This document shows, piece after piece, positions 19,668-34,574 of a stretch of DNA of 64,000 nt; within the stretch, counting starts at the first letter, position 1; each line of letters begins with the position of its first letter. Where the stretch lies: assembly GCF_011762225.1 (NCBI RefSeq), contig NZ_JAASQI010000006.1:1-64000 (forward strand). Reading direction: 5' to 3'. This DNA is from Pseudochelatococcus lubricantis (GTDB taxonomy: Bacteria > Pseudomonadota > Alphaproteobacteria > Rhizobiales > Beijerinckiaceae). The translations under genes and the position numbers were made by a program. The notes under the pieces are model-generated. The model saw only the letters and a list, made by a program, of their open reading frames with translations. It was not told the origin of the DNA and made no database searches.

Positions 19668-20354
19668 CTAGGATGCCGTATTCGATGCTCGCATGAGGTA
19701 TCCGGCTCCGGGAATGGTATGGATCAGGGGCGAGGCAAAGCCGCCATCGATCTTGCGGCGGAGCCGGTGGATATGCATGTCGACGACATTGCTCTTCGGC
19801 TCGAAGTCATAGGGCCAGGCAGCCTCCAGGAGCATGGTGCGCGTGACCACCTGACCGGCATGACGCATCAGGTATTCGACCAGCAGGAACTCCCGATGCT
19901 GGAGATCGATCCGGCGCTCCCCGCGTCGCGCGCGGCGCTGCACCATATCGAGTTCGAAGTCGCCGAGCCGCAGAATGTGATCCCGTCGGTCTGGCCGTTT
20001 CCGGCGCAGCAGTGCTTCGAGCCGGGCGATGAGTTCGGCGGTGGCGTAGGGCTTGACCAGATAATCGTCGGCACCGGCGTTGAGGGCGGCGACCTTGTCG
20101 AGCGTGCCGCCGAGGGCGCTCAGCATCAGCACAGGGATGGGATTTCCAGCGGTGCGCAGCGCCGCCAGAATCTCTGTCCCGGCCAGCTCGGGCAGGAGTT
20201 GATCCAGGATGATGACGTCATAGATGCCCTCCGACGCCATGGCGAGGCCGGTCGGTCCGTCGCCGACCCGGTCGGCGATATGTCCGGTCTCGACGAGCGC
20301 GCGCTCGATGTAGCCGGCGGTGCGATCGTCGTCCTCGACGATCAGGATGCGCAT
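19668..20354 (-). CDS. OmpR/PhoB-family response regulator
   Basis: This 228-residue regulator has a receiver domain with phosphoacceptor Asp51 (VIILDQLLP), conserved VLMLSA and LVKPY, and a C-terminal winged helix ending in HTIPGAGYLM. It has no kinase gene on its own strand; the operon continues into the efflux remnant, adaptor and pump. Its closest visible relative is the divergent regulator 120 bp away, with the block LMRHAGQVVTRTML identical in both. The kinase next to that paralogue may serve both. It probably activates the efflux operon. Confidence 0.9.
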   Translation of the reverse strand: MRILIVEDDDRTAGYIERALVETGHIADRVGDGPTGLAMASEGIYDVIILDQLLPELAGTEILAALRTAGNPIPVLMLSALGGTLDKVAALNAGADDYLVKPYATAELIARLEALLRRKRPDRRDHILRLGDFELDMVQRRARRGERRIDLQHREFLLVEYLMRHAGQVVTRTMLLEAAWPYDFEPKSNVVDMHIHRLRRKIDGGFASPLIHTIPGAGYLMRASNTAS

Positions 20355-20377
20355 CGCGATGCTCCAGAAGAGTCAGA

Positions 20378-20393
20378 TGAAATGGATTTCATG
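20378..20393. promoter_or_regulatory. palindrome in the divergent response-regulator promoter region
   Basis: ATGAAATGGATTTCAT is a 7-2-7 perfect inverted repeat located 24 bp upstream of the minus-strand regulator gene, inside the 120-bp divergent region. It is a candidate binding site for one of the regulators, though OmpR-type proteins more often use direct repeats. Confidence 0.35.
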
Positions 20394-20474
20394 ATATGGC
20401 AAACCCGACGTTCGGAGCGAAATGAGATCATGCTACCATCAAACATACCTAGGCTGGCTTAGTGAGGCGATGTG

Positions 20475-21158
20475 ATGACGACTATTCTCGTTATCGAGGA
20501 CGACGTTCAGACGGCTCGGGAGATAGAGGCTGCGTTGGTCGACCACGGTTATGAGGCCCGTATGGCGTCGACCGGACGTGAAGGGCTCGTCAAGGCCGTC
20601 GGCGAGAGTTACGACGCGATCATTCTCGACCGCATGCTGCCGGGCGACCTCGACGGCCTGGGGATCCTCACAACCTTGCGGACGGCCGGGGTGAGCACGC
20701 CGGTTCTCATCCTGAGCGCCCTTTCCGCGGTCGACGAACGGGTGCGCGGCCTCAAGGCGGGCGGCGACGATTATCTGACGAAGCCGTTCGACTTTCTGGA
20801 GCTGACCGCGCGGCTCGACGCCCTGATGCGCCGCAATGTCGGCCCGGCAGCTGAGACCACGCTGCGCGTCGGCGATCTGGAAATCGACCTGTTGACCCAT
20901 AGCGTATGCCGGCGGGGCCAGACGATCGAGTTGCTGCCGCGCGAGTATCGTCTTCTCGAATATCTGATGCGTCATGCCGGTCAGGTGGTTACGCGGACGA
21001 TGCTGTTCGAGGAGGTCTGGCACTATCGCTATGACGAGCCAACCAATGTCATTGATGTCCATATCGGGAAACTGCGCCGGAAAATCGATCTGGGGAGCCA
21101 GGCGTCGATGATCCAGACCGTCCGCGGCTCCGGCTATATCCTCGATGCGAATCATTGA
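20475..21158 (+). CDS. OmpR/PhoB-family response regulator (paralogue of the divergent one)
   Basis: This 227-residue regulator has receiver Asp52 (AIILDRMLP), LILSAL, LTKPF and a winged-helix output domain ending VRGSGYILDAN. The ATG at 20475 follows GTGAGGCG; a GTG one codon earlier is in frame. The coding end overlaps the histidine-kinase gene by 14 bases, so they are a cognate pair. Similarity to the divergent regulator reaches near-identity over about 40 bases in the DNA-binding domain, implying duplication. Confidence 0.9.
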   Translation: MTTILVIEDDVQTAREIEAALVDHGYEARMASTGREGLVKAVGESYDAIILDRMLPGDLDGLGILTTLRTAGVSTPVLILSALSAVDERVRGLKAGGDDYLTKPFDFLELTARLDALMRRNVGPAAETTLRVGDLEIDLLTHSVCRRGQTIELLPREYRLLEYLMRHAGQVVTRTMLFEEVWHYRYDEPTNVIDVHIGKLRRKIDLGSQASMIQTVRGSGYILDANH

Positions 21159-22980: not shown

Positions 22981-23520
22981 ATGCCGGGTTGCGCGGATGA
23001 TGTTTCAGGCAGTCTGCGTTCTGGATTCGGGCGTGGGTACGATTCAGCGGCGGCCCGGCTTGCGGGCGGCGGAGGATTTCTGTTCGCCCTGGCGCGATTG
23101 TTCCCGCCATGGGTCCGGTGGATAGCGGCGGCTTCGGCTGTGCCACTTGTGATCGCCCGGCCCGCTCTTGCCGAGGGTGGCGATCCGTCGCTCGCCAGAT
23201 GCGCTGCCATTCCGGCTGATAGCGACCGGCTGGCATGCTATGACGCCCTTGCACGCGATCGGGCGGGTCCGATTTTCTCGGGCTTCGGTAATGGCGCCAC
23301 AGGCATTTTCAGTACCTCCGGTCCAGCGACTCTTGTCTACGAAAGCGAGGACGTCATCCTCGTTCTTTATCTTGAGGACGACACCGGCCGGCTTGTTCAG
23401 AACCTCCATCTCGGCGGCAGGGGCGAAGGGCGTTATCCGCTGCCCGGGCCGGGGCGATATCGTGTGCAGGTCGATGCCTCGGGCGGCTGGCGCATCCGGG
23501 TGGTGGAGTCCCGGCCGTGA
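22981..23520 (+). CDS. exported protein of unknown function, first gene of a two-component operon
   Basis: The 179-residue product has a long N-terminus with a hydrophobic stretch (about residues 47-64) and likely cleavage after ALA. The mature part begins with a two-cysteine motif, RCAAIPADSDRLACYDALA (Cys74, Cys86), seen in several periplasmic proteins, then a small beta-rich domain that ends GPGRYRVQVDASGGWRIRVV. The start follows AGGGAGAAG. Its stop overlaps the kinase start (GTGA), so it is translationally coupled to the kinase and may be an accessory sensor in the periplasm. No function known to me. Confidence 0.7.
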   Translation: MPGCADDVSGSLRSGFGRGYDSAAARLAGGGGFLFALARLFPPWVRWIAAASAVPLVIARPALAEGGDPSLARCAAIPADSDRLACYDALARDRAGPIFSGFGNGATGIFSTSGPATLVYESEDVILVLYLEDDTGRLVQNLHLGGRGEGRYPLPGPGRYRVQVDASGGWRIRVVESRP

Positions 23521-25085
23521 CACTCGCCGTCCGCCTTGCCCTCGCTGTCGGGATTCCGCTCGCCGCGCTCGCCGCCCTGACGTGCCTCGGGGCCTGGCAA
23601 CTCCGCACGGAGGAATGGACGCACAGCCGCGTGGAGAAGGCGGGGCGGCAGATCGCCGTGCTGGAGCGGGTGCTGGCGGACGTCGACCGGATGGCGCTGG
23701 ATACGCTGCTCGCCGCGGATCCGGCAGCGGCACGCGCGGCGCTGGCGGAGGCCGAACTCGACGCGATGCAGGATCTGGGCGTGCTCGACCGGCTGACGGA
23801 GGAGGAGATCGCTTTCGTCGGCGACGAGGAGCGTGACAGGGAAGTGGAGGAGCGCGATCGCCCGGCCGCGTTGCGCGCCGGTATCCGCCGCATGACGGCA
23901 CTGCTTGGCGGTGCCGTGGAGGCTCGCTTTTCCTCAGATGCCGCTGTCGCGGCGGGCACGGGTGCAAGTGAGCTGGACCAGGCGCGGCAGGATTTTCGCG
24001 CGCTGGTCAAGGAAGCGCTGACCGACGAGGCCGACGAAATCGAAACCGCCCGCTCCGGCCGAGCTGCGCTCCGCAACAGGCTTGTTTGGCTCGTTTTCGC
24101 GCTCGTCGGCATTGCGGCCGTGGCCGCGTTGGCGCTGGGGATGTCGGTCGCCCGGCGGGCGGGGCGAAGTTTCCGCAGCCAGCGCGAAGCCGTGTCCCGG
24201 ATTGGGGACGGGCATTTCGATACGCGGATTTCTCCCGTGCCGTGGGACGAGGCCGGCACAGTCTCGCAGGCGGTGAACGGCATGGCGGAGGCGCTCGAAC
24301 GCGCATCAGTCCGACAAGGCGAGGAGCAGCGCCGGCTTGCCGGGACGCTGGAACGCCGGAGTGTCGAACTCGAACTGTCCAACGCCCGGTTGCGTGAAGT
24401 CGATGCCAACCGGCGGCGCTTTCTGGCCGACATCGGCCACGCCCTGAAGACGCCCCTCGCGGTTGCGCGCGGCACGCTGGAGAACGCCCGCACGGGTTGG
24501 GAACGGCAGGGCAGGGGTACGGCACCGTTCGATACCGCGATCGATGCCATCGATGAGGTGGCCGGGCGGGTTTCCGAACTGCTCACGCTCGCGCGCGCCG
24601 AGGACGGACGCCTCGTCCGGGCGCTGGAGCCGGTGGAGCTTTACGATTTTCTCGACAGCCGGCTGGCGTCGCTGCGCGCCTTGCCGGGAAGCGGGCGGCT
24701 GCGTTTCCGCTATGCAGGCGATGAGCCCGTGATGATCCGGGCCGATCGGCGGGAATTGCAGCGGGCCTGCGATGCGTTGCTTGAGAACGCGCTCGACCAC
24801 GCCGGACCGGAGTCGCCCGTCGAGGTCACGCTGGAGGCCGACGAGCTGGAAGCCCGCATCGCGATCCGCGACAGCGGCCCGGGCATTCCCGAGCCGCTCC
24901 TCGCGCACGTCTTCGAGCGGGAGGTGAGCGGGAGGGGAGGCACCGGCATCGGCCTTTCCATGGCGCGCGGGCTGGTGCAGGGGCTCGGCGGCACGCTGAC
25001 GATCGGCGCCGGGTGCGCGGGCGGGACGGAGGTGCTGATCCGCCTGCCCCGGGTCAGCGAGGAGACGGAGGAAGGCACGGCATGA
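23517..25085 (+). CDS. sensor histidine kinase
   Basis: This 522-residue kinase has TM1 at about 6-26, a 160-residue periplasmic domain rich in Ala/Glu/Asp (probably helical), TM2 near 188-208, HAMP, a coiled linker, then His308 in FLADIGHALKTPLAVARG and an ATPase domain with N box ALLENALDHA, RDSGPGIP and GGTGIGLSMA. The start is a GTG overlapping the upstream stop. It is coupled by an ATGA overlap to its response regulator. Position next to the PQQ alcohol dehydrogenase suggests control of alcohol oxidation. Confidence 0.9.
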   Translation: MTLAVRLALAVGIPLAALAALTCLGAWQLRTEEWTHSRVEKAGRQIAVLERVLADVDRMALDTLLAADPAAARAALAEAELDAMQDLGVLDRLTEEEIAFVGDEERDREVEERDRPAALRAGIRRMTALLGGAVEARFSSDAAVAAGTGASELDQARQDFRALVKEALTDEADEIETARSGRAALRNRLVWLVFALVGIAAVAALALGMSVARRAGRSFRSQREAVSRIGDGHFDTRISPVPWDEAGTVSQAVNGMAEALERASVRQGEEQRRLAGTLERRSVELELSNARLREVDANRRRFLADIGHALKTPLAVARGTLENARTGWERQGRGTAPFDTAIDAIDEVAGRVSELLTLARAEDGRLVRALEPVELYDFLDSRLASLRALPGSGRLRFRYAGDEPVMIRADRRELQRACDALLENALDHAGPESPVEVTLEADELEARIAIRDSGPGIPEPLLAHVFEREVSGRGGTGIGLSMARGLVQGLGGTLTIGAGCAGGTEVLIRLPRVSEETEEGTA

Positions 25086-25765
25086 CCATTCTGGTGATCG
25101 AGGATGATTTCCGTATTGCGCAGGTGGTGGAGGACGCCTTCGTGGCCGGCGGCTGGCAGGTGGAGCGATGCGGGACCGGTGAGGAAGGTCTCGACCGGGC
25201 GGCGGCAGGCCGGTTCGACGCCATCGTGCTCGATGTGCTCCTGCCCGTCTATTCGGGCTTCGAGGTCTGCCAACGGTTGCGCGAGCAGGGTGTGACGACG
25301 CCGATACTGATGCTGACCTGCCGCGACCGGGACGAGGATATCGTGCGCGGCCTGCGCCTCGGCGCCGACGATTACGTGACCAAGCCATTCTCGACCACCC
25401 AGCTGACAGCGCGCGTGGACGCGCTGGTGCGGCGGGCCACGGGCTTTCCCCGTGGCCGGCAGCTTCGGGCAGGATCGCTGGTCCTCGATCAGAAAAGTCG
25501 GCGGGTCTCCGTCGGGGAGCATGTCATTCCGCTCACGGCGAGGGAGTTCGGGCTGCTCGAATTCTTCATGCAACATGCTGGCCGGGCAATTACGCGCGAG
25601 ACCCTGCTGGAGCGCGTCTGGGGCGACGACGATTGTCATACCCCCAATGTCGTGGACGTTTACGTCTCCTATCTGCGCCGGAAGCTCGCCCACAGCGGCG
25701 CCGGCTTGCAATTGCGGACGGTGAGGGGCTACGGTTACATTCTCGACGAGCCGGTCGGGCATTGA
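25082..25765 (+). CDS. OmpR/PhoB-family response regulator
   Basis: This 227-residue regulator has receiver Asp51 (AIVLDVLLP), LMLTCR and VTKPF, and a winged-helix domain ending VRGYGYILDEP. The start overlaps the kinase stop (ATGA). It is 180 bp upstream of the PQQ dehydrogenase, and the gap contains 11-bp phased direct repeats of the kind OmpR-family dimers bind, so it likely controls that gene directly. Confidence 0.9.
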   Translation: MTILVIEDDFRIAQVVEDAFVAGGWQVERCGTGEEGLDRAAAGRFDAIVLDVLLPVYSGFEVCQRLREQGVTTPILMLTCRDRDEDIVRGLRLGADDYVTKPFSTTQLTARVDALVRRATGFPRGRQLRAGSLVLDQKSRRVSVGEHVIPLTAREFGLLEFFMQHAGRAITRETLLERVWGDDDCHTPNVVDVYVSYLRRKLAHSGAGLQLRTVRGYGYILDEPVGH

Positions 25766-25840
25766 ACCTGCGGGTTACGCCGCGGGGCGCGACATGAAAC
25801 GTCGCGGAGCGATCGGCATACGACCAAGGTCCCCCCTCGT

Positions 25841-25884
25841 CTTAGGAAATTCTCAGGCGGGCCTCAGTCCGCTCTCAGTCCGGA
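25841..25884 (+). promoter_or_regulatory. four phased 11-bp direct repeats, likely response-regulator binding array
   Basis: Four contiguous 11-bp units run CTTAGGAAATT, CTCAGGCGGGC, CTCAGTCCGCT, CTCAGTCCGGA. The last three share CTCAG at identical spacing; the first is a degenerate copy in phase. One helical turn per unit is the classic layout for head-to-tail OmpR/PhoB binding. The array ends 61 bp before the dehydrogenase start. Confidence 0.6.
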
Positions 25885-25945
25885 ATGCTAGCCTCCCATT
25901 CATTGGAACCGGAGAAAACCGGCCTTACGTCTGGGAGGAAAAACG

Positions 25946-27784
25946 ATGAAACGCAAAGCCACGCTTGTGGCGGCCGCCAGCTTTCTGGCGCTCGTGCTCG
26001 CTGCACCCGCCATGGCCGATGTCGGCTGGGACGACATCCGTAACGATGCGGAAACGACGGAAGACGTGCTGATGTACGGTTTCGGGCCGAAGGCGCAACG
26101 CTTCAGCCCGCTCGATGCCGTCAATGTCGAGACGGTGAAGAACCTCGTCCCCGCATGGTCCTTCTCCTTCGGGGACGAGCGCCAGCGCGGCCAGGAGGCG
26201 CAGGCCATCGTCAAGGACGGCGTGATCTATGTCACGGCATCCTACAGCCGGATGTTCGCTCTCGATGCCCGGACCGGACGCAAGCTGTGGCAGTATACCG
26301 CGCGCCTGCCGGAAGGCATCCGCCCCTGCTGCGACGTGATCAACCGCGGCGCGGCGATCTACGGCGACAAGGTCTACATGGGACTGCTCGACGCCTCGGT
26401 CGTCGCGCTCGACCGCAAGACCGGAAAGGTTGTCTGGCACAAGCGTTTCGGCGATTACAAGGTCGGCTATACGATTACCGGCGCCCCGACGATCATCCGC
26501 GACAGGGAAACGGGCCGCGACCTGTTGATCCATGGTTCGTCCGGCGACGAGTTCGGCGTGGTGGGCCAGCTCTTCGCCAGGGATCCCGAGACGGGCGAGG
26601 AGATATGGATGCGGCCGCTCGTGGAGGGCCATATGGGCCGCTACATGGGCAAGGACAGCACGCCGACCGGCAACCCCGACGCGCCGTCGTGGCCGCGCGA
26701 CAAGAGCGGGCAGCTCGTGCAGGCGTGGCACCATGGCGGCGGCGCGCCGTGGCAGTCCGCCTCCTTCGACGAGGAGACGAACACCATCATCATCGGGGCC
26801 GGCAACCCCGCTCCGTGGAACGGCTGGGCACGCTGGCCGGGTGACAGCCTGTTCACATCCGGGCAAGCCTATGTCAACCCGACGAACGGCGAGCTGGTCG
26901 GCTTCTATCAGCACACGCCGAACGATACCTGGGATTTCTCCGGCAACAACGAGATCATTCTCTTCGACTACACGGACAAGGACGGCAAGAAACATCGGGC
27001 CGGCGCCCACGCCGATCGTAACGGGTTCTTCTACGTGACGGACATCGACGCGCTTTCGAAGCGCGGCGGCGAGATCAACCGTCCCAAGGCGTTGCTCAAC
27101 GCCTTCCCCTTCGTGGACGGGATCACGTGGGCCAAGGGCATCGATCTTGAGACCGGCCGCCCGATCGAAGTCGAGGGCCAGCGTCCGCCCCCGCCCGCGG
27201 AAGGGCAGAGCAAGGGGCCCGTTGCGCAGATTTCGCCGCCATTCCTGGGCGGCAAGAACTGGAATCCGATGTCCTACAGCCCGAAGACCGGCCTCTTTTA
27301 CATCCCGGCGAACCATTGGCAGGAGGACTTCTGGGCGGAGAAGGTGAACTACGCGCCCGGCGCCGCCTATCTCGGCATGGGCTTCACCATCAAGAAGAAA
27401 TTCGAGGATCACGTCGGCATCCTGCGCGCCATGGACCCCGCGACGGGCAAGATAAAGTGGGAGCACAAGGAGGAGATGCCGCTCTGGGCAGGCACGCTGG
27501 CCACGGAGGGAGGGCTCGTCCTCACCGGCACGTCAGACGGCTACTTCAAGGCGTTCAACGCCGAGACGGGCGAGGAGTTGTGGAAGTTCCAGACCGGCTC
27601 GGGGATCGTCTCATCCCCCATCACCTGGACAATGGATGGCGAGCAGTACATCGGCGTGGCGTCGGGCTACGGCGGCGCGGTGCCTCTCTGGGGCGGCGAC
27701 ATGGCCAAGATGACGCGCAACGTGAGTCAGGGCGGATCGTTCTGGGTATTCAGGCTGTCCGACATCAAACAGGCACGGAAGTAG
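25946..27784 (+). CDS. PQQ-dependent alcohol dehydrogenase, ExaA-type
   Basis: This 612-residue periplasmic quinoprotein oxidises primary alcohols such as ethanol and passes electrons to a c-type cytochrome. It has a signal peptide (cleavage after AMA, residue 24), an eight-bladed propeller, the vicinal disulfide Cys128-Cys129 (GIRPCCDV), and calcium ligands in SSGDEFG (Glu202) and GAGNPAPW (Asn287). The catalytic Asp330 lies in TWDFSGNNE. Position +2 from that Asp is Ser332, not the second Asp of lanthanide enzymes (XoxF, ExaF), so it should be calcium-dependent. No cytochrome or pqq biosynthesis gene is in the window. It lies downstream of the two-component operon and the 11-bp repeats. Confidence 0.92.
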
Positions 27785-28666: not shown

Positions 28667-28951
28667 TCACAGACCTTCGACGATCACGAGCTGGGTTTCG
28701 GCCGCGCCTTCCCTGCGGCGGCGGGCTTCCTGATACTCGGGTGAATCGTAGCAGGCCCGGGCGCTGGCAAGATCCGGAAAGCGGATCACCACATGGCGTT
28801 GCAGCGTTGGTCCCTCAAGCGTCTCAAACGCGCCGCCACGCGCCAGAAACTCCGCTCCGTAACGGGCGAAGGCAGTGGCGGCCTGCTCCCGATAGCCCGC
28901 ATAAGCCTCGGGGTCGGTGATCGTTACATGGGCAATCCAGTAGGCGGTCAT
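28667..28951 (-). CDS. DUF1330-family small protein
   Basis: This 94-residue protein belongs to the dimeric alpha/beta-barrel group by its pattern: MTAYWIAHVTITDPEAYAGY, FLARGGAFETLEG, VIRFPDLASARACYDSPEYQ. Its function is unknown; relatives often accompany catabolic operons. Its start overlaps the GntR stop by four bases (ATGA), so it is translated with the regulator and is part of the same control unit. Confidence 0.82.
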   Translation of the reverse strand: MTAYWIAHVTITDPEAYAGYREQAATAFARYGAEFLARGGAFETLEGPTLQRHVVIRFPDLASARACYDSPEYQEARRRREGAAETQLVIVEGL

Positions 28952-29664
28952 CGGCCGGATTTTCCTTTTTTGGGAGCGGATGTCTCGCTGGCGTCGAGAA
29001 GGCGGCCGGCGATCATGGCCGCTTCTGTCAGGTGATCGCGAACGGCTTGCGCGGCGGTTTCCGGCTGGCGCGACAGGATCGCCTCGGCGATGCGCTGCAT
29101 CCGCGCGTGGCCTGAAACATGACGCTCCTTCGAGGCCAGCGTCAGTGCGCGCAGCCGCGATATGCGACCGTTCAGACGCTGCACGATTTCCCACGCGATA
29201 TGATGCCCCGCCGACGTGAAGATCACCTCGTAAAAACGGGTCGTCGCATCATAAAGAACCTGCGGGTCCGTCGAGGAAAACGCTTCTTCGAGGTTCTTCA
29301 ATGCGCCTGAAAGCGCAGCTCGCGACCTGTCATCCAGAAAACGCGCGCAATCGGCGGCTGCCGCGGATTCCAGCCGCAGGCGGATGTCGTAGATCTGCCG
29401 AGCCGTGTCTCGGTCCAGCGTGGCAACCACCGGGCCGCTGCGGGGCATGATCTCGACCAGCCCTTCCGCCTCCAGATAGCGGATCGCCTCCCGCACGACC
29501 GAGCGCGAGACACCGAGCTGGTCGACCAGAGTGCGTTCGACCAGCCGGTAACCCGAAGGAAGCTGTCCGGACATGATCGCGGCGCGCAGGCGCTCGATTG
29601 CGATCTCCCGCAGCGTTTGGGGCACATGCTCAATGCGTAGGCCGATGAACTGTTCGTTTTCCAT
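28948..29664 (-). CDS. GntR-family transcriptional regulator (FadR/FCD subfamily)
   Basis: This 238-residue regulator has an N-terminal winged HTH (VDQLGVSRSVVREAIRYLEA) and an all-helical C-terminal FCD domain with metal-ligand-type residues (the histidines of GHHIAWE, HARMQ and DHLTEAA). The ATG at 29664 follows AAGG; a GTG two codons earlier is possible. It is divergent from the AA_synth-led catabolic operon, and a perfect FadR-type operator lies between them, so it is the likely repressor, relieved by a pathway acid. Confidence 0.9.
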   Translation of the reverse strand: MENEQFIGLRIEHVPQTLREIAIERLRAAIMSGQLPSGYRLVERTLVDQLGVSRSVVREAIRYLEAEGLVEIMPRSGPVVATLDRDTARQIYDIRLRLESAAAADCARFLDDRSRAALSGALKNLEEAFSSTDPQVLYDATTRFYEVIFTSAGHHIAWEIVQRLNGRISRLRALTLASKERHVSGHARMQRIAEAILSRQPETAAQAVRDHLTEAAMIAGRLLDASETSAPKKGKSGR

Positions 29665-29721
29665 GCACACACCTTACCCTGCGCAGAAAAAATGCACAAC
29701 ATATTATTGACAGATGGTATG

Positions 29722-29733
29722 TTGGTATACCAA
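29722..29733. promoter_or_regulatory. GntR (FadR-type) operator
   Basis: TTGGTATACCAA is a perfect 12-bp palindrome of the TNGTNNNACNA-like class bound by FCD regulators. It lies between the divergent gntR and AA_synth genes, just downstream of a TTGACA (29707-29712) that could be a -35 box for the rightward promoter. Confidence 0.7.
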
Positions 29734-29773
29734 GATAATTGGACAGCAAGGAGAATCGTAAAGGATAGGTGCA

Positions 29774-30376
29774 ATGGCTGCTGAAATTCGAAAAACCCTT
29801 CTGACCGTCGAAACGATCCTGATCGAAGGCGGCCGCGCCGCGCCGCGCCCCCTGAAGCTCATTGCGGCGGCGGCCGTCGTCCGCAATCCCTGGGCGGGCC
29901 GTGGCTTTGTCGAGGATCTGAAGCCCGAGATTCATGCGGTCGCTCCCGAACTGGGCGAGTTGCTGACGAAGATGATCATCGATACAACGGGCTCTGGCGA
30001 GGCGGTCGAGGGTTATGGCAAGGCGGCGGTTGTCGGGCTGGATGGCGAGCTGGAGCACGCCAACGCACTGATCCACACCCTGCGGTTCGGCAACCATTAC
30101 AGAAGCGCGGTCGGGGCGAAGTCCTATCTGGCTTTCACGAATACACGCGGCCCCGCCAACTCCCCGATCCTGATCCCGCTCATGGACAAGAACGACGAAG
30201 GCCGCCGGTCGCACTACCTGACCATCCAGTTCGCCATTCCCGACGCTCCGGCGGCGGATGAAATCGTGGTGGCGCTCGGAGCCTCCATCGGCGGCCGCCC
30301 GCATCACCGTATCGGCGACCGTTATCAGGATCTGAAGGATCTGGGTCATGACGTTTCGAACCCTGCCGCTGTCTGA
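29774..30376 (+). CDS. AA_synth (PF06684, formerly DUF1185) family protein
   Basis: The 200 residues match the PF06684 family by overall pattern (RKTLLTVETILIEGGR, AAAVVRNPWAG, SGEAVEGYGKAAVVG, SYLAFTNTRGP). From memory, solved members adopt a chorismate-mutase-like fold and are guessed to act in amino-acid metabolism; the reaction is unproven. No signal peptide. First gene of the operon after the GntR operator; its end overlaps the hydrolase gene by 29 bases. Its recurrence beside flavin monooxygenases suggests it handles a ring-opened or amide intermediate. Confidence 0.8.
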   Translation: MAAEIRKTLLTVETILIEGGRAAPRPLKLIAAAAVVRNPWAGRGFVEDLKPEIHAVAPELGELLTKMIIDTTGSGEAVEGYGKAAVVGLDGELEHANALIHTLRFGNHYRSAVGAKSYLAFTNTRGPANSPILIPLMDKNDEGRRSHYLTIQFAIPDAPAADEIVVALGASIGGRPHHRIGDRYQDLKDLGHDVSNPAAV

Positions 30377-31163
30377 CGGCAGTATCGTTCGGCTGATCGA
30401 GAGTGGTCCGCGTGGCGGCGCGAACAGCGCGCCGTTGCTGCTGATCCACGGTGTAGGAATGCGCGCGGAGGCATGGAAGCCGCAGATTGAGGAGCTTTCG
30501 CGCAGTCACCATGTGATCGCCGTCGACATGCCCGGCCATGGCGGCAGTTCACCTTTGTCGCCGGATGCGCGCCTGCCAGATTTCGTCGGCTGGGCTGCGC
30601 GTCTGGTAGAGGCGCTGGGAGAGGGGCCGGTCAATCTGGCGGGCCATTCGATGGGCGCTCTGGTATCCGCCGGGCTCGCCGTGGAGCGTCCCGATCTGGT
30701 CGTGCGCGTCGCGCTGCTGAATGCGGTCCATCGGCGCAGTCCGGAAGCGCGGAACGCAGTCATCGCCCGCGCCGCCGAGATATCCGGTGGAGACGGACGC
30801 ATCGACGGGCCGCTTTCCCGTTGGTTTGGCGACGATCAGGATGATATCCGCGCCATGGTGGCCGACTGGCTGGCCGGGATGGATCTCCGGGGTTACGCGA
30901 CGGCGTACCGCTCTTTCGCGGAGGGCGACACCGTCTATGCCGATCGCTTGTCGCAGATCCGTTGTCCCGCACTGCTGCTGACTGGCGAGCATGATCTCAA
31001 CTCCAGCGCGCAGATGAGCCGCGACATGGCGGCGGCCATTCCGCTGGGCGAGGCGGTGATCGTTCCCGGCCATCGTCATATGGTCAACCTGACCGCTCCC
31101 GCCATCGTCAACGATGCCCTGAAAGACTGGCTCAGCCGGAGTATAGCCTATGACTGCGTTTGA
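30348..31163 (+). CDS. alpha/beta hydrolase
   Basis: This 271-residue cytoplasmic hydrolase has the LLIHGVG oxyanion strand, GHSMGAL nucleophile (Ser101) and a GHRHMV histidine. In architecture it resembles RutD- or NicD-like enzymes that cleave small amide or carbamate intermediates, but the similarity is only at the fold level. It overlaps both neighbours (29 and 14 bases), which places it firmly inside the operon. Confidence 0.85.
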   Translation: MTFRTLPLSDGSIVRLIESGPRGGANSAPLLLIHGVGMRAEAWKPQIEELSRSHHVIAVDMPGHGGSSPLSPDARLPDFVGWAARLVEALGEGPVNLAGHSMGALVSAGLAVERPDLVVRVALLNAVHRRSPEARNAVIARAAEISGGDGRIDGPLSRWFGDDQDDIRAMVADWLAGMDLRGYATAYRSFAEGDTVYADRLSQIRCPALLLTGEHDLNSSAQMSRDMAAAIPLGEAVIVPGHRHMVNLTAPAIVNDALKDWLSRSIAYDCV

Positions 31164-32055
31164 TCCGCGCGCCCTGCGCGACGCCTTCGGGTGTTTCATG
31201 ACCGGCGTCACAGTGGTCACCACCACGGGCCCCGCCGGCGAGCCTGTCGGCTTCACGGCGAACTCGTTTTCCTCCGTCTCCCTCGATCCGCCGCTGCTGC
31301 TCGTCTCGATCGGCCGCAGCTCGCGCAACTTCGCGCATTTCGTCAACGCCGGGGGATTCGCGGTCAACGTGCTGGCCGAGGGTCAGAAAGAGGTTTCCAG
31401 CACATTCGCGCGGCCCGTCGAGGATCGCTTCGCGGACGTCGAATGGCATGCCGGGCCCGCGGGCTCGCCGGTGATCGCGGGGGCGTCGGCCTGGTTCGAC
31501 TGCACCCTGTGGCAGACGGTCGAAGCCGGCGATCATGTCATCCTGCTGGGGGAAATAAGGGGCTTCTCCGCCTCGCATGAGCCGGGGCTGGGCTACTACC
31601 GGGGCGCCTACATCACCCCCGCCGCGACGGCCGCGCAGCTCCCGGCTGGTCCCGATGTCGTGATCTCGGCCATCGTCGAGGCGGCGGGGCAGGTGTTGCT
31701 TCTGGATGATGATGCCGGCCGCCTGAGCCTGCCGGAAGCACGTGTCGGCCGTGATGGCGTCAGGCCGGCTCTGGAGAAACTGCTCGCCAGCGTGGCGCCG
31801 GGCGCGGCTTCCGGGGAAATCTATGCCGTCTATGAAGGCGAAGCCGAAGGACGGCAGCATATCGCCTTTCGTTGCGCCGCAACCTCGCCGGAGGCGTCAC
31901 GCGGCGCATTCATTCCGCTCGAAACCGCCTGTCTGAAGGCGGTGGGCGACCCGGCCACGCGATCGATGCTGGACCGGCTTGCGACCGAAACAAGGCTTGG
32001 CAACTACGGCGTCTACTTCGGGTCGCATGCCGAAGGTCAGGTTACACGCAAATAG
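31150..32055 (+). CDS. flavin reductase with a C-terminal Nudix-like domain
   Basis: Residues 1-160 form a flavin-reductase domain of the RutF/HpaC type (RDAFGCFMTGVTVVTT, FTANSFSSVSLDPPLLLVSI, and YYRGAY near the end), which would supply reduced FMN to the monooxygenase gene 12 bp downstream. Residues about 170-300 are an extra domain, starting VVISAIVEAAGQVLLLDDDA then LSLPEARV, like the first strands of a Nudix fold. The Nudix box GxxxxxExxxxxxxREUxEExGU is absent, so hydrolase activity is unlikely and a binding role more plausible. Usual single-domain reductases are 160-190 residues; this one has 301. Confidence 0.82.
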   Translation: MTAFDPRALRDAFGCFMTGVTVVTTTGPAGEPVGFTANSFSSVSLDPPLLLVSIGRSSRNFAHFVNAGGFAVNVLAEGQKEVSSTFARPVEDRFADVEWHAGPAGSPVIAGASAWFDCTLWQTVEAGDHVILLGEIRGFSASHEPGLGYYRGAYITPAATAAQLPAGPDVVISAIVEAAGQVLLLDDDAGRLSLPEARVGRDGVRPALEKLLASVAPGAASGEIYAVYEGEAEGRQHIAFRCAATSPEASRGAFIPLETACLKAVGDPATRSMLDRLATETRLGNYGVYFGSHAEGQVTRK

Positions 32056-32067
32056 AGAGGACACGGC

Positions 32068-33105
32068 ATGAAGTTTTCGCTCTTCATCCACATGGAACGT
32101 GTGTCGGCGGATCAGGACCAGAAAACGCTCTACGAGGAAATGCTGGAGCTTTGCCGCATCGCCGACGAGGGCGGCCTGCACGCCATCTGGACCGGCGAAC
32201 ACCACGCCATGAATTTCACCATCTCGCCGAATCCGTTTCTGAACCTGATCGACATCGCGCGACAGACGAAGAACGTGCGCCTTGGCACGGGCACGGTGGT
32301 CGCCCCGTTCTGGCATCCGATCCGGCTGGCGGGCGAAGCGGCGATGACCGACCTGATCACCGGCGGCCGGCTGGAGCTGGGCATTGCGCGCGGCGCTTAC
32401 AGCTTCGAGTACGAGCGGATGCTGCCCGGGCTCGACGCATGGGGCGCGGGCCAGCGCATGCGTGAACTGATCCCCGCCATCAAGAAGGTGTGGCAAGGCG
32501 ATTACGAGCATCAGGGCGATTTCTGGCAGTTTCCCAAAACGACGAGTGCTCCGCTGCCGGTGCAGAAGCCGCATCCGCCGATCTGGGTTGCAGCGCGTGA
32601 TCCCAACAGCCACGAATTCGCCGTGGAGAACGGCTGCAACGTGCAGGTCACGCCGCTGCATCTGGGCGATGAGGAAGTCGAGAGCCTGATGGAGCGCTTC
32701 AACGCCGCCTGCGAGAAGTTCCCGGATCAGCCCCGCCCGCAAATCATGGTGCTGCGTCATACTTACGTCGCCGACAGCGAGGCAGATGCACAGCGCGGCG
32801 CTGAAGAACTGAACCTGTTTTACAATTATTTCGGCGCGTGGTTCAAAAACGAACGTCCGATCTCGATGGGCCTCATCGAGCGGCTGACGCCGGAAGATGT
32901 CGCCGCCCATCCGTTCTATTCGCCCGAAGCGATGCGCAGGAACCAGATCGTTGGCGAGGCTCCCGAGGTCATCGCCCGCATCAAATCCTACGAGGCGCTG
33001 GGCTATGACGAATTCAGCTTCTGGATCGACAGCGGCATGAGCTTCGAGCGCAAACGCGCCTCGCTGGAGCGTTTCATCCGGGATGTCATCCCGGCTTTCG
33101 GGTGA
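32068..33105 (+). CDS. luciferase-like (LLM-class) flavin-dependent monooxygenase
   Basis: This 345-residue TIM-barrel enzyme of the bacterial luciferase superfamily is cytoplasmic and uses reduced flavin and O2. Family signatures are AIWTGEHHAMNF, RLGTGTVVAPFWHPIRLA and GRLELGIARGAYSFEY. Adjacent to a flavin reductase, it should form a two-component monooxygenase, the key oxidising step of the cluster. It may open a ring or hydroxylate next to nitrogen as RutA does, but it is not RutA-like in close detail. The start follows AGAGAGGAC. Confidence 0.9.
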   Translation: MKFSLFIHMERVSADQDQKTLYEEMLELCRIADEGGLHAIWTGEHHAMNFTISPNPFLNLIDIARQTKNVRLGTGTVVAPFWHPIRLAGEAAMTDLITGGRLELGIARGAYSFEYERMLPGLDAWGAGQRMRELIPAIKKVWQGDYEHQGDFWQFPKTTSAPLPVQKPHPPIWVAARDPNSHEFAVENGCNVQVTPLHLGDEEVESLMERFNAACEKFPDQPRPQIMVLRHTYVADSEADAQRGAEELNLFYNYFGAWFKNERPISMGLIERLTPEDVAAHPFYSPEAMRRNQIVGEAPEVIARIKSYEALGYDEFSFWIDSGMSFERKRASLERFIRDVIPAFG

Positions 33106-33110
33106 CCGGC

Positions 33111-34574
33111 ATGCAGAGTTTTCAACACTATATCGACGGGCGCTTCGAGGACGGGGCGGCGACCTTTGAAAGTCTCGATCCGGCTGATGGCCGCCCCTGG
33201 GCGCTGATGCCCGACGCCAGCGCGGCGGATGTGGACCGTGCGGTGCGCGCTGCCGATCGGGCGTTTACCGATCCCCGGTGGGCGGGGTTGACGGCGACCG
33301 CGCGCGGAAAGCTGCTGATGCGGCTTGCCGAACTGGTGGAGGAGGCCGCGCCGCGTCTGGCGCGTCTGGAAACCCGTGACACCGGCAAGATCATCCGCGA
33401 GACATCGGCCCAGATCGCCTATGTGGCGGAGTATTATCGCTATTATGCGGGGTTGGCCGACAAGATAGAAGGCGCGCACCTGCCGATCGACAAGCCGGAT
33501 ATGGAAGTCTGGCTGCGACGCGAACCCGTGGGCGTCGTGGCGGCCATCGTGCCGTGGAACAGCCAGCTTTTCCTGTCCGCCGTGAAGATCGGCCCGGCGC
33601 TGGCGGCCGGTTGCACGCTGGTCGTCAAGGCCAGCGAGGATGGTCCCGCGCCGTTGCTGGAATTTGCGCGACTTATCGATCAGGCCGGTTTTCCGCCCGG
33701 CGTGGTCAATATCCTGACTGGCGGTCCAGGGGCCGGCGCGGCGCTGACCACACATCCGAAGGTGGCGCATATCGCCTTCACCGGTGGGCCGGAAACCGCG
33801 CGCCACATCGTGCGCGGCTCGGCTGAGAATCTGGCCAAGACCTCGCTGGAGCTTGGCGGCAAATCTCCTTTCATCGTCTTTGACGATGCCGATCTCGACT
33901 CCGCGGCGAATGCGCAGGTCGCGGGTATCTTCGCCGCCACGGGCCAGAGCTGCGTCGCAGGTTCCCGGCTTCTGGTCCAGGAGAGCATTCGCGAGGATTT
34001 CCTCGCCCGGCTGAAGGCAAAGGCCGAGGCCGTCACGATCGGCGCGCCCGACAATATGGCGACCGAGGTCGGCCCGCTCTGCACCCGTCGCCAGCGCGAC
34101 CGGATAGAGGGCGTTGTCGCGGCCTCCGTCGCCGGCGGCGCAAGGCTCGTGACCGGCGGTGCGGCGATTGCCGGTGACGGGTTCTACTTTCCTCCCACCA
34201 TTCTCGACTGCTCGTCCGTGCCGGATGCGCCATCGGTGACGGAGGAGCTTTTCGGCCCGGTCCTCTCGGTCGTGAGCTTCAGGGATGAGGACGAGGCGCT
34301 GCATCTGGCGAACGACACACGCTATGGCCTGGCATCCGGCGTGTTCACGCGTAGCCTGACCCGTGCGCATCGCATGATCAGGGGCATTCGCGCCGGCATT
34401 GTATGGGTCAACACCTACCGCGCCGTGTCGCCCATCGCGCCCTTTGGCGGGCATGGATTGTCCGGGCACGGGCGCGAAGGCGGCCTCGCCGCCGCGCTGG
34501 ATTACACGACGGTCAAGACGGTCTGGCTGAGAACCTCGGACGCTCCCATTCCGGACCCTTTCGTCATGCGTTGA
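33111..34574 (+). CDS. NAD(P)-dependent aldehyde dehydrogenase
   Basis: This 487-residue enzyme has all ALDH catalytic landmarks: Asn150 (VPWNSQ), base Glu247 (SLELGGKSP) and nucleophile Cys281 (GQSCVAGS), plus EELFGPVLSV. It probably oxidises the aldehyde released by the monooxygenase/hydrolase steps. The ATG at 33111 gives the normal N-terminus; a GTG at 33102 overlapping the preceding stop is possible. The gene is followed by the importer genes after 76 bp. Confidence 0.9.
   Translation: MQSFQHYIDGRFEDGAATFESLDPADGRPWALMPDASAADVDRAVRAADRAFTDPRWAGLTATARGKLLMRLAELVEEAAPRLARLETRDTGKIIRETSAQIAYVAEYYRYYAGLADKIEGAHLPIDKPDMEVWLRREPVGVVAAIVPWNSQLFLSAVKIGPALAAGCTLVVKASEDGPAPLLEFARLIDQAGFPPGVVNILTGGPGAGAALTTHPKVAHIAFTGGPETARHIVRGSAENLAKTSLELGGKSPFIVFDDADLDSAANAQVAGIFAATGQSCVAGSRLLVQESIREDFLARLKAKAEAVTIGAPDNMATEVGPLCTRRQRDRIEGVVAASVAGGARLVTGGAAIAGDGFYFPPTILDCSSVPDAPSVTEELFGPVLSVVSFRDEDEALHLANDTRYGLASGVFTRSLTRAHRMIRGIRAGIVWVNTYRAVSPIAPFGGHGLSGHGREGGLAAALDYTTVKTVWLRTSDAPIPDPFVMR

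Follow-up and report, generated by a model that had tools for sequence, protein, structure and literature searches.

What controls the exaA gene of this locus, and through which DNA element? In Pseudomonas, a two-component system, PedS2/PedR2 (ExaDE, EraSR), and a pentapeptide-repeat gene adjoin exaA/pedE, and excerpts of the source describe both PedR2 and AgmR as LuxR-type regulators (PMC12997753). The locus in the window (the whole 64,000-nucleotide stretch analysed here) likewise has a two-component system and a pentapeptide-repeat gene next to exaA, but its regulator is OmpR-type and is accompanied by a repeat operator candidate. We propose, with a probability of about 0.82, that the neighbouring two-component system, of OmpR/PhoB type, would use this array as its operator and activate exaA directly.

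The genes run in the order ORF1, histidine kinase, OmpR-type regulator, array, exaA and pentapeptide gene, with 4-base overlaps between ORF1 and the kinase and between the kinase and the regulator (Table 1). The first-pass annotation had placed the array before a PQQ alcohol dehydrogenase gene and behind that of an OmpR-type regulator. Both identifications held: the dehydrogenase scores above the TIGR03075 cutoff and has the quinoprotein ethanol dehydrogenase 1FLG as its best PDB relative (E 1e-283), and the regulator matches PF00072 (86.8 bits) and PF00486 (84.6 bits) above cutoff. The WDFS motif at the metal site presumably marks the calcium type of dehydrogenase. The regulator's score against the PhoB equivalog TIGR02154 was 193.2 bits, below the cutoff of 296.2. 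No Pfam family exceeded its cutoff in the sensor part of the kinase or in ORF1 (VasI, 13.6 bits against 26.5). Among eight plasmid matches to ORF1, seven directly follow the pentapeptide gene in exaA regions of Paracoccus, Gemmobacter and Ponticoccus, and the remaining one maps to a second P. marcusii plasmid, about 0.8 kb away from the exaA match there; an ORF1 relative is also present in all eight exaA loci from the window's family. Since relatives of ORF1, which is upstream of the pair, belong to other exaA loci, the kinase and regulator genes lie within the exaA gene set. Two marks of the canonical ped/exa unit came out differently here: the pentapeptide-repeat gene is beside exaA, just as one follows exaA in all 11 plasmid regions examined (picked from 20 at 60% identity or more, out of 106 records matching the dehydrogenase), and the regulator beside exaA is of the Trans_reg_C rather than the LuxR type.

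Table 1. Coordinates of the exaA locus and its putative control elements in the window.
Feature	Position	Strand	Basis or remark
ORF1, small exported-looking protein	22981..23520	+	Related gene occurs in other exaA loci; conserved part begins near residue 70, start position uncertain
Sensor histidine kinase	23517..25085	+	HAMP, HisKA, HATPase_c; start and stop overlap neighbours
OmpR-type response regulator, receiver and Trans_reg_C	25082..25765	+	Recognition helix NVVDVYVSYLRRK, residues 189-201
Candidate four-unit 11-bp operator array	25840..25883	+	TCTTAGGAAAT, TCTCAGGCGGG, CCTCAGTCCGC, TCTCAGTCCGG (best framing); matching array in 4/4 relatives with an OmpR-type pair before exaA
Candidate -10 box TAGCCT, TGC ahead of it	25889..25894	+	10 bp past the last TCTCAG
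Ribosome-binding site GGGAGGA ahead of exaA start	25933..25939	+	Sequence
exaA/pedE-type PQQ-dependent ethanol dehydrogenase	25946..27784	+	TIGR03075, 736.9 bits against cutoff 480.05; WDFS at metal site as in 1FLG
PedD-like pentapeptide-repeat partner of exaA	27847..28449	+	PF00805

Next, we examined the array itself. Its half-sites read TCTTAG, TCTCAG, CCTCAG and TCTCAG, with CTTAG at 25841 and CTCAG at 25852, 25863 and 25874, in steps of exactly 11 bp; the first-pass reading of three CTCAG words and a fourth unit in phase was therefore correct. Unit 1 has T at position 4, unit 3 has C at position 1, and position 7 is G, G, T and T in units 1-4. Unit 1, the fourth unit of that reading, had also been called degenerate, which need not be so, because a site of this kind opens with TCTTAGGAAAA in a Streptomyces relative (L106).

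Judged on its pattern alone, an array like this one is no more than moderately improbable in 64 kb and not far beyond chance. CTNAG-N6-CTNAG-N6-CTNAG, a pattern picked after the array had been seen, matched the window twice, at overlapping positions, whereas 100 dinucleotide shuffles gave no match. When the motif was left free, 25% of 200 shuffled windows held an exact 5-mer triple at 11 bp, and 5 of the 200 held a four-unit score at least equal to the array's own (19 of 20). CTYAG-N6-CTYAG occurs at five sites in the 4.63-Mb genome, three of them the array itself, against nine for the backward-read control, and the four-unit pattern was found in 2/385 sampled class genomes against 4/385 for a control pattern. 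Because the control patterns were the more frequent ones, rarity alone proves little. The two genomes were that of Pseudochelatococcus and one (G075) with a minisatellite-like run of CTCAGGCCTAT 11-mers (contig C47, 31965-32101, L134), whose period agrees with that of the array but whose spacers repeat too, unlike those of an operator.

A functionless short tandem repeat that arose by chance or slippage would fit the ease with which 5-mer triples arise in shuffled windows, the run of similar period in G075 and the TCCG common to the spacers of units 3 and 4. Against it, the array spacers are otherwise unlike while the half-sites recur, and the same place and phase are occupied in all four relatives whose exaA is 64-67% identical to that of the window; we regard a functionless repeat as extremely improbable. 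This conservation removes the doubt that the pattern statistics leave: the array is real.

The comparison behind this conclusion drew on genomes and plasmids. exaA at about 66% identity or more was present in 8 of 386 other sampled genomes of the window's family. By tblastn, four of these loci, all from one genus (g8), have a divergent LuxR-type regulator, and the other four, all from another genus (g33), have an OmpR-type pair in the order kinase, regulator, exaA, pentapeptide gene and ORF1. Each g33 locus has four TCTCA(G/T)-like units in phase with one another, and downstream of them TAGCCT or TAACCT. On a 24-point score, the scoring word of which comes from the window itself, the window array reached 22 and the g33 arrays 20, 21, 21 and 22 (0/500 shuffles in each case), and other periods gave 11-16. 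LuxR/GerE-type regulators accounted for 10/10 of those typed by Pfam in the plasmid exaA regions (the L242 regulator and a second one at L241 were left out). Together with seven genome loci typed by tblastn, they make up 17 LuxR-type loci, one of which (L243) has an estimated start for an unannotated exaA; these 17 and one paralogue scored 11-15 of 24 on either strand. In the 400 bp that precede exaA, coding-strand TA[GA]CCT showed the same division, with 5/5 OmpR-type loci against 0/17 LuxR-type loci. Among the loci examined, array and TA(G/A)CCT box are thus found with every OmpR-type pair before exaA and are absent from 17/17 LuxR-type loci. Of the four g33 promoters, three nearly duplicate one another, and the evidence amounts to about three separate views rather than five. 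Five plasmid OmpR-type regulators resembling that of g33 were also considered and set aside; they have other neighbour genes and no array (best 13-15 of 24).

We then considered how the array is placed relative to the promoter. No sigma-70 hexamer pair was found in 25700-26000. TAGCCT is a candidate -10 element, though a weak box. The last array unit ends 10 bp before this box in the window and 11 bp before its counterpart in the relatives, so that the array covers the -35 zone. This layout resembles the PhoB-controlled pho box of E. coli pstS, where four direct-repeat units of 11 bp, including a poor one, stop 10 bp short of TATTTT, which we take to be the -10 box. The half-site differs (CTGTCAT in E. 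coli versus TCTCAG in the window), as does the target, which here is alcohol oxidation. In excerpts of PMC4415409, the pho box consists of two units of 11 nt that are bound head-to-tail, and contact with the sigma subunit is mentioned. The same regulator could instead bind the array and repress exaA, as PhoB is called a dual regulator by site position in excerpts of PMC10294691; however, with the array stopping 10-11 bp short of the -10 box and lying over a -35 zone that has no hexamer pair, the layout is that of an activator-dependent promoter such as pstS, and we consider repression unlikely. Given the pstS-like geometry and the missing sigma-70 hexamer pair, activation by two tandem dimers is the natural reading.

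Which regulator reads the half-sites? The closest solved relative of the window regulator is M. tuberculosis PhoP, whose site, in excerpts of the structural report, is TCACAGC, a 4-bp spacer and TCACAGC, with base contacts by Asn212, Val213, Glu215, Ser216, Tyr217 and Tyr220 (PMC4832192). The recognition helix of the window regulator, NVVDVYVSYLRRK, differs from that of PhoP, NVVESYVSYLRRK, only in Glu215 to Asp and Ser216 to Val; Asn212, Val213, Tyr217, Ser219, Tyr220, Arg222 and Arg223 are identical. The half-sites share T-C-x-C-A-G at 11-bp steps; compared with TCACAGC, the window consensus has T for A at position 3 and G/T for C at position 7. According to the same excerpts, PhoP Ser216 shares a water that touches the third base of the half-site, and Glu215 is packed against the bases that pair with positions 6 and 7, a pairing derived from the numbering there (PMC4832192). 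The two differing contact residues, E215D and S216V, are therefore at or beside the two differing bases (positions 7 and 3, respectively). PhoP uses two units, and the window array has four. In quick trees the window regulator forms a long, poorly placed branch outside the actinobacterial PhoP clade. Several other regulators of its genome and of related genomes group there with named Alphaproteobacteria, and a regulator from one family member (L011) is almost identical to those of Methylobacterium, which makes an alphaproteobacterial host from the Hyphomicrobiales likely.

A different OmpR-type regulator of this genome could also use the array, given that direct repeats are described as the rule for the family (PMC4832192, in part) and that two more such regulators lie 4-6 kb away (19671-20354 and 20472-21155). 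The genome has 19 Trans_reg_C matches, and helices could be read in 17 (all but L232 and L233); the adjacent regulator is the sole carrier of the Tyr217/Ser219-Tyr220 (SYL-type) pattern among these 17. The OmpR-type pair adjoins exaA again in four relatives, and we judge use by another regulator to be very unlikely. The neighbouring region (19668-21158) holds divergent OmpR-type regulators with a kinase after the second, and the best NCBIfam match there, CzcR/SilR/CopR, is below cutoff.

A DNA pattern for the SYL helix, which would not match the GYL helix of g33, occurred in 1/385 sampled class genomes, that of Pseudochelatococcus, and a search of 385 class genomes at E 1e-53 returned only the window's own regulator. 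No close orthologue was present among 60 relatives, in which the best listed identity outside its own genome was 46%, for a regulator with no exaA in view. The best identities were 45% among the best 80 loci listed from named species and 46.6% in plasmids, and 69 loci from viral contigs held distant relatives only. The g33 regulators are only 38-41% identical to that of the window, no closer than the 46% one. Their helix, N[AS]VDVY[IV]GYLR, keeps Asn212, Asp215, Val216, Tyr217 and Tyr220 and is without Val213 and Ser219; the g33 half-sites are TCTCA with a variable position 6.

We also asked whether SYL-type helices elsewhere go with similar half-sites. Helices in genomes and relatives were read by tblastn, and 80 regulator loci listed from named genomes yielded 78 readable helices, 39 SYL-type and 39 other. 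Among these listed loci, TCNCAG-N5-TCNCAG (9 or 10 of 10 positions, spacing 11) lies upstream of the regulator's own gene in 19/39 SYL-type cases, against 0-4 of 39 at spacings of 7-10 and 12-15. Other helices gave 1/38 at spacing 11 (one locus was dropped for its short upstream sequence) and 0-2 at other spacings, and the single non-SYL carrier has a near-SYL helix. Those of the 39 listed SYL-type rows for which a phylum is given are all Actinomycetota; because related Actinobacteria dominate, the 19 cases are a consistent trend, not 19 independent events. In four Streptomyces-type loci (L075, L097, L104 and L106), about 125 bp ahead of the regulator's own gene, TCACAG lies one 11-bp step after a TCTCAG or TCTTAG, and these are likely autoregulatory sites. 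PhoP autoregulation through direct repeats is described in excerpts of PMC3413638. Taken together, the helices and half-sites suggest a readable OmpR-type helix code in which residue 216 would pair with the third half-site base.

These comparisons lead us to infer binding by the adjacent regulator, as two dimers, with activation rather than repression from the -10 box. The membrane kinase would sense a signal tied to periplasmic alcohol oxidation and phosphorylate the regulator. Two head-to-tail dimers of the regulator would then occupy the four 11-bp units in tandem, with one TCTCAG for each recognition helix to read. The promoter-proximal dimer would stand in for the missing -35 contact and hold RNA polymerase on the TAGCCT box, from which transcription of exaA and the pentapeptide gene would start. 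Direct activation by two dimers had been predicted by the first-pass annotation; the helix fit, the co-occurrence with OmpR-type pairs only and the pstS-like geometry all agree with it and support it, short of proof. The wider regulon that a genome search was expected to reveal did not materialize: outside the array, this search gave only two stray CTYAG pairs and a single TCNCAG pair, counts that do not exceed those of the controls. CTCAG-N6-CTCAG pairs outside the array lie at G000:C4:165913-165928 and G000:C14:21298-21313, at chance frequency. Autoregulation through the same motif was rejected, the best pairs before ORF1 and the kinase matching 7 and 6 of 10 positions.

How did an OmpR-type pair come to stand before exaA? 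In a quick tree, OmpR-controlled exaA falls in two places, the window's gene beside LuxR-type loci of Rhodobacterales at support 86 (not starred), and the g33 genes beside those of g8 at 99 (starred). A single clade of the five OmpR-controlled exaA genes, a group defined by regulator type and not from the tree, was rejected (AU p 4.6e-7). By this tree, the OmpR-type arrangement at exaA occurs in at least two separate lineages. A single clade of the five regulators, also placed in a quick tree in which the window regulator is a long branch, was not rejected (p 0.29), and the window kinase scores 70-84 bits against the g33 kinases, no better than against others (up to 102 bits). An OmpR-type pair with a portable four-unit TCTCAG operator could have displaced the LuxR-type exaA regulator at least twice, either by block transfer onto a different exaA lineage or by convergence of two unrelated pairs, a scenario for which we see even odds. 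Alternatively, OmpR-type control of exaA may be ancestral and have been repeatedly lost.

What is new here is the wiring: the ped/exa regulators that we found described are LuxR-type, and here an OmpR-type system lies inside the exaA gene set. In the part of the literature on exaA/pedE regulation within our scope, to which most subscription papers did not belong, we found no description of an OmpR-type operator for exaA, and no title or abstract among the best 15 of 360 partly accessible literature matches contained TCTCAG as a response-regulator site. Methylotroph MxaB/MxbM may be precedents for other dehydrogenases. Outside the LuxR-type scheme of Pseudomonas, the locus offers a testable, sequence-level pairing of regulator and operator for a PQQ ethanol dehydrogenase, and it indicates how one enzyme set can be rewired to a regulator of a different family.

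On another contig of the same genome (L289, G000:C7:71000-90900), a second PQQ alcohol dehydrogenase (56%), a LuxR-type regulator, a PedF-like cytochrome and pqqC lie together, and this regulator is 66% identical to a Paracoccus exaA-locus regulator. With LuxR-type control genes there and OmpR-type ones in the window, both regulator types stand beside PQQ dehydrogenases in one genome. Downstream of the pentapeptide gene, the region 28667-34574 looks catabolic and encodes, as named from translations, a GntR regulator, a short monooxygenase-like protein, an alpha/beta hydrolase, a flavin reductase, a luciferase-like monooxygenase and an aldehyde dehydrogenase.
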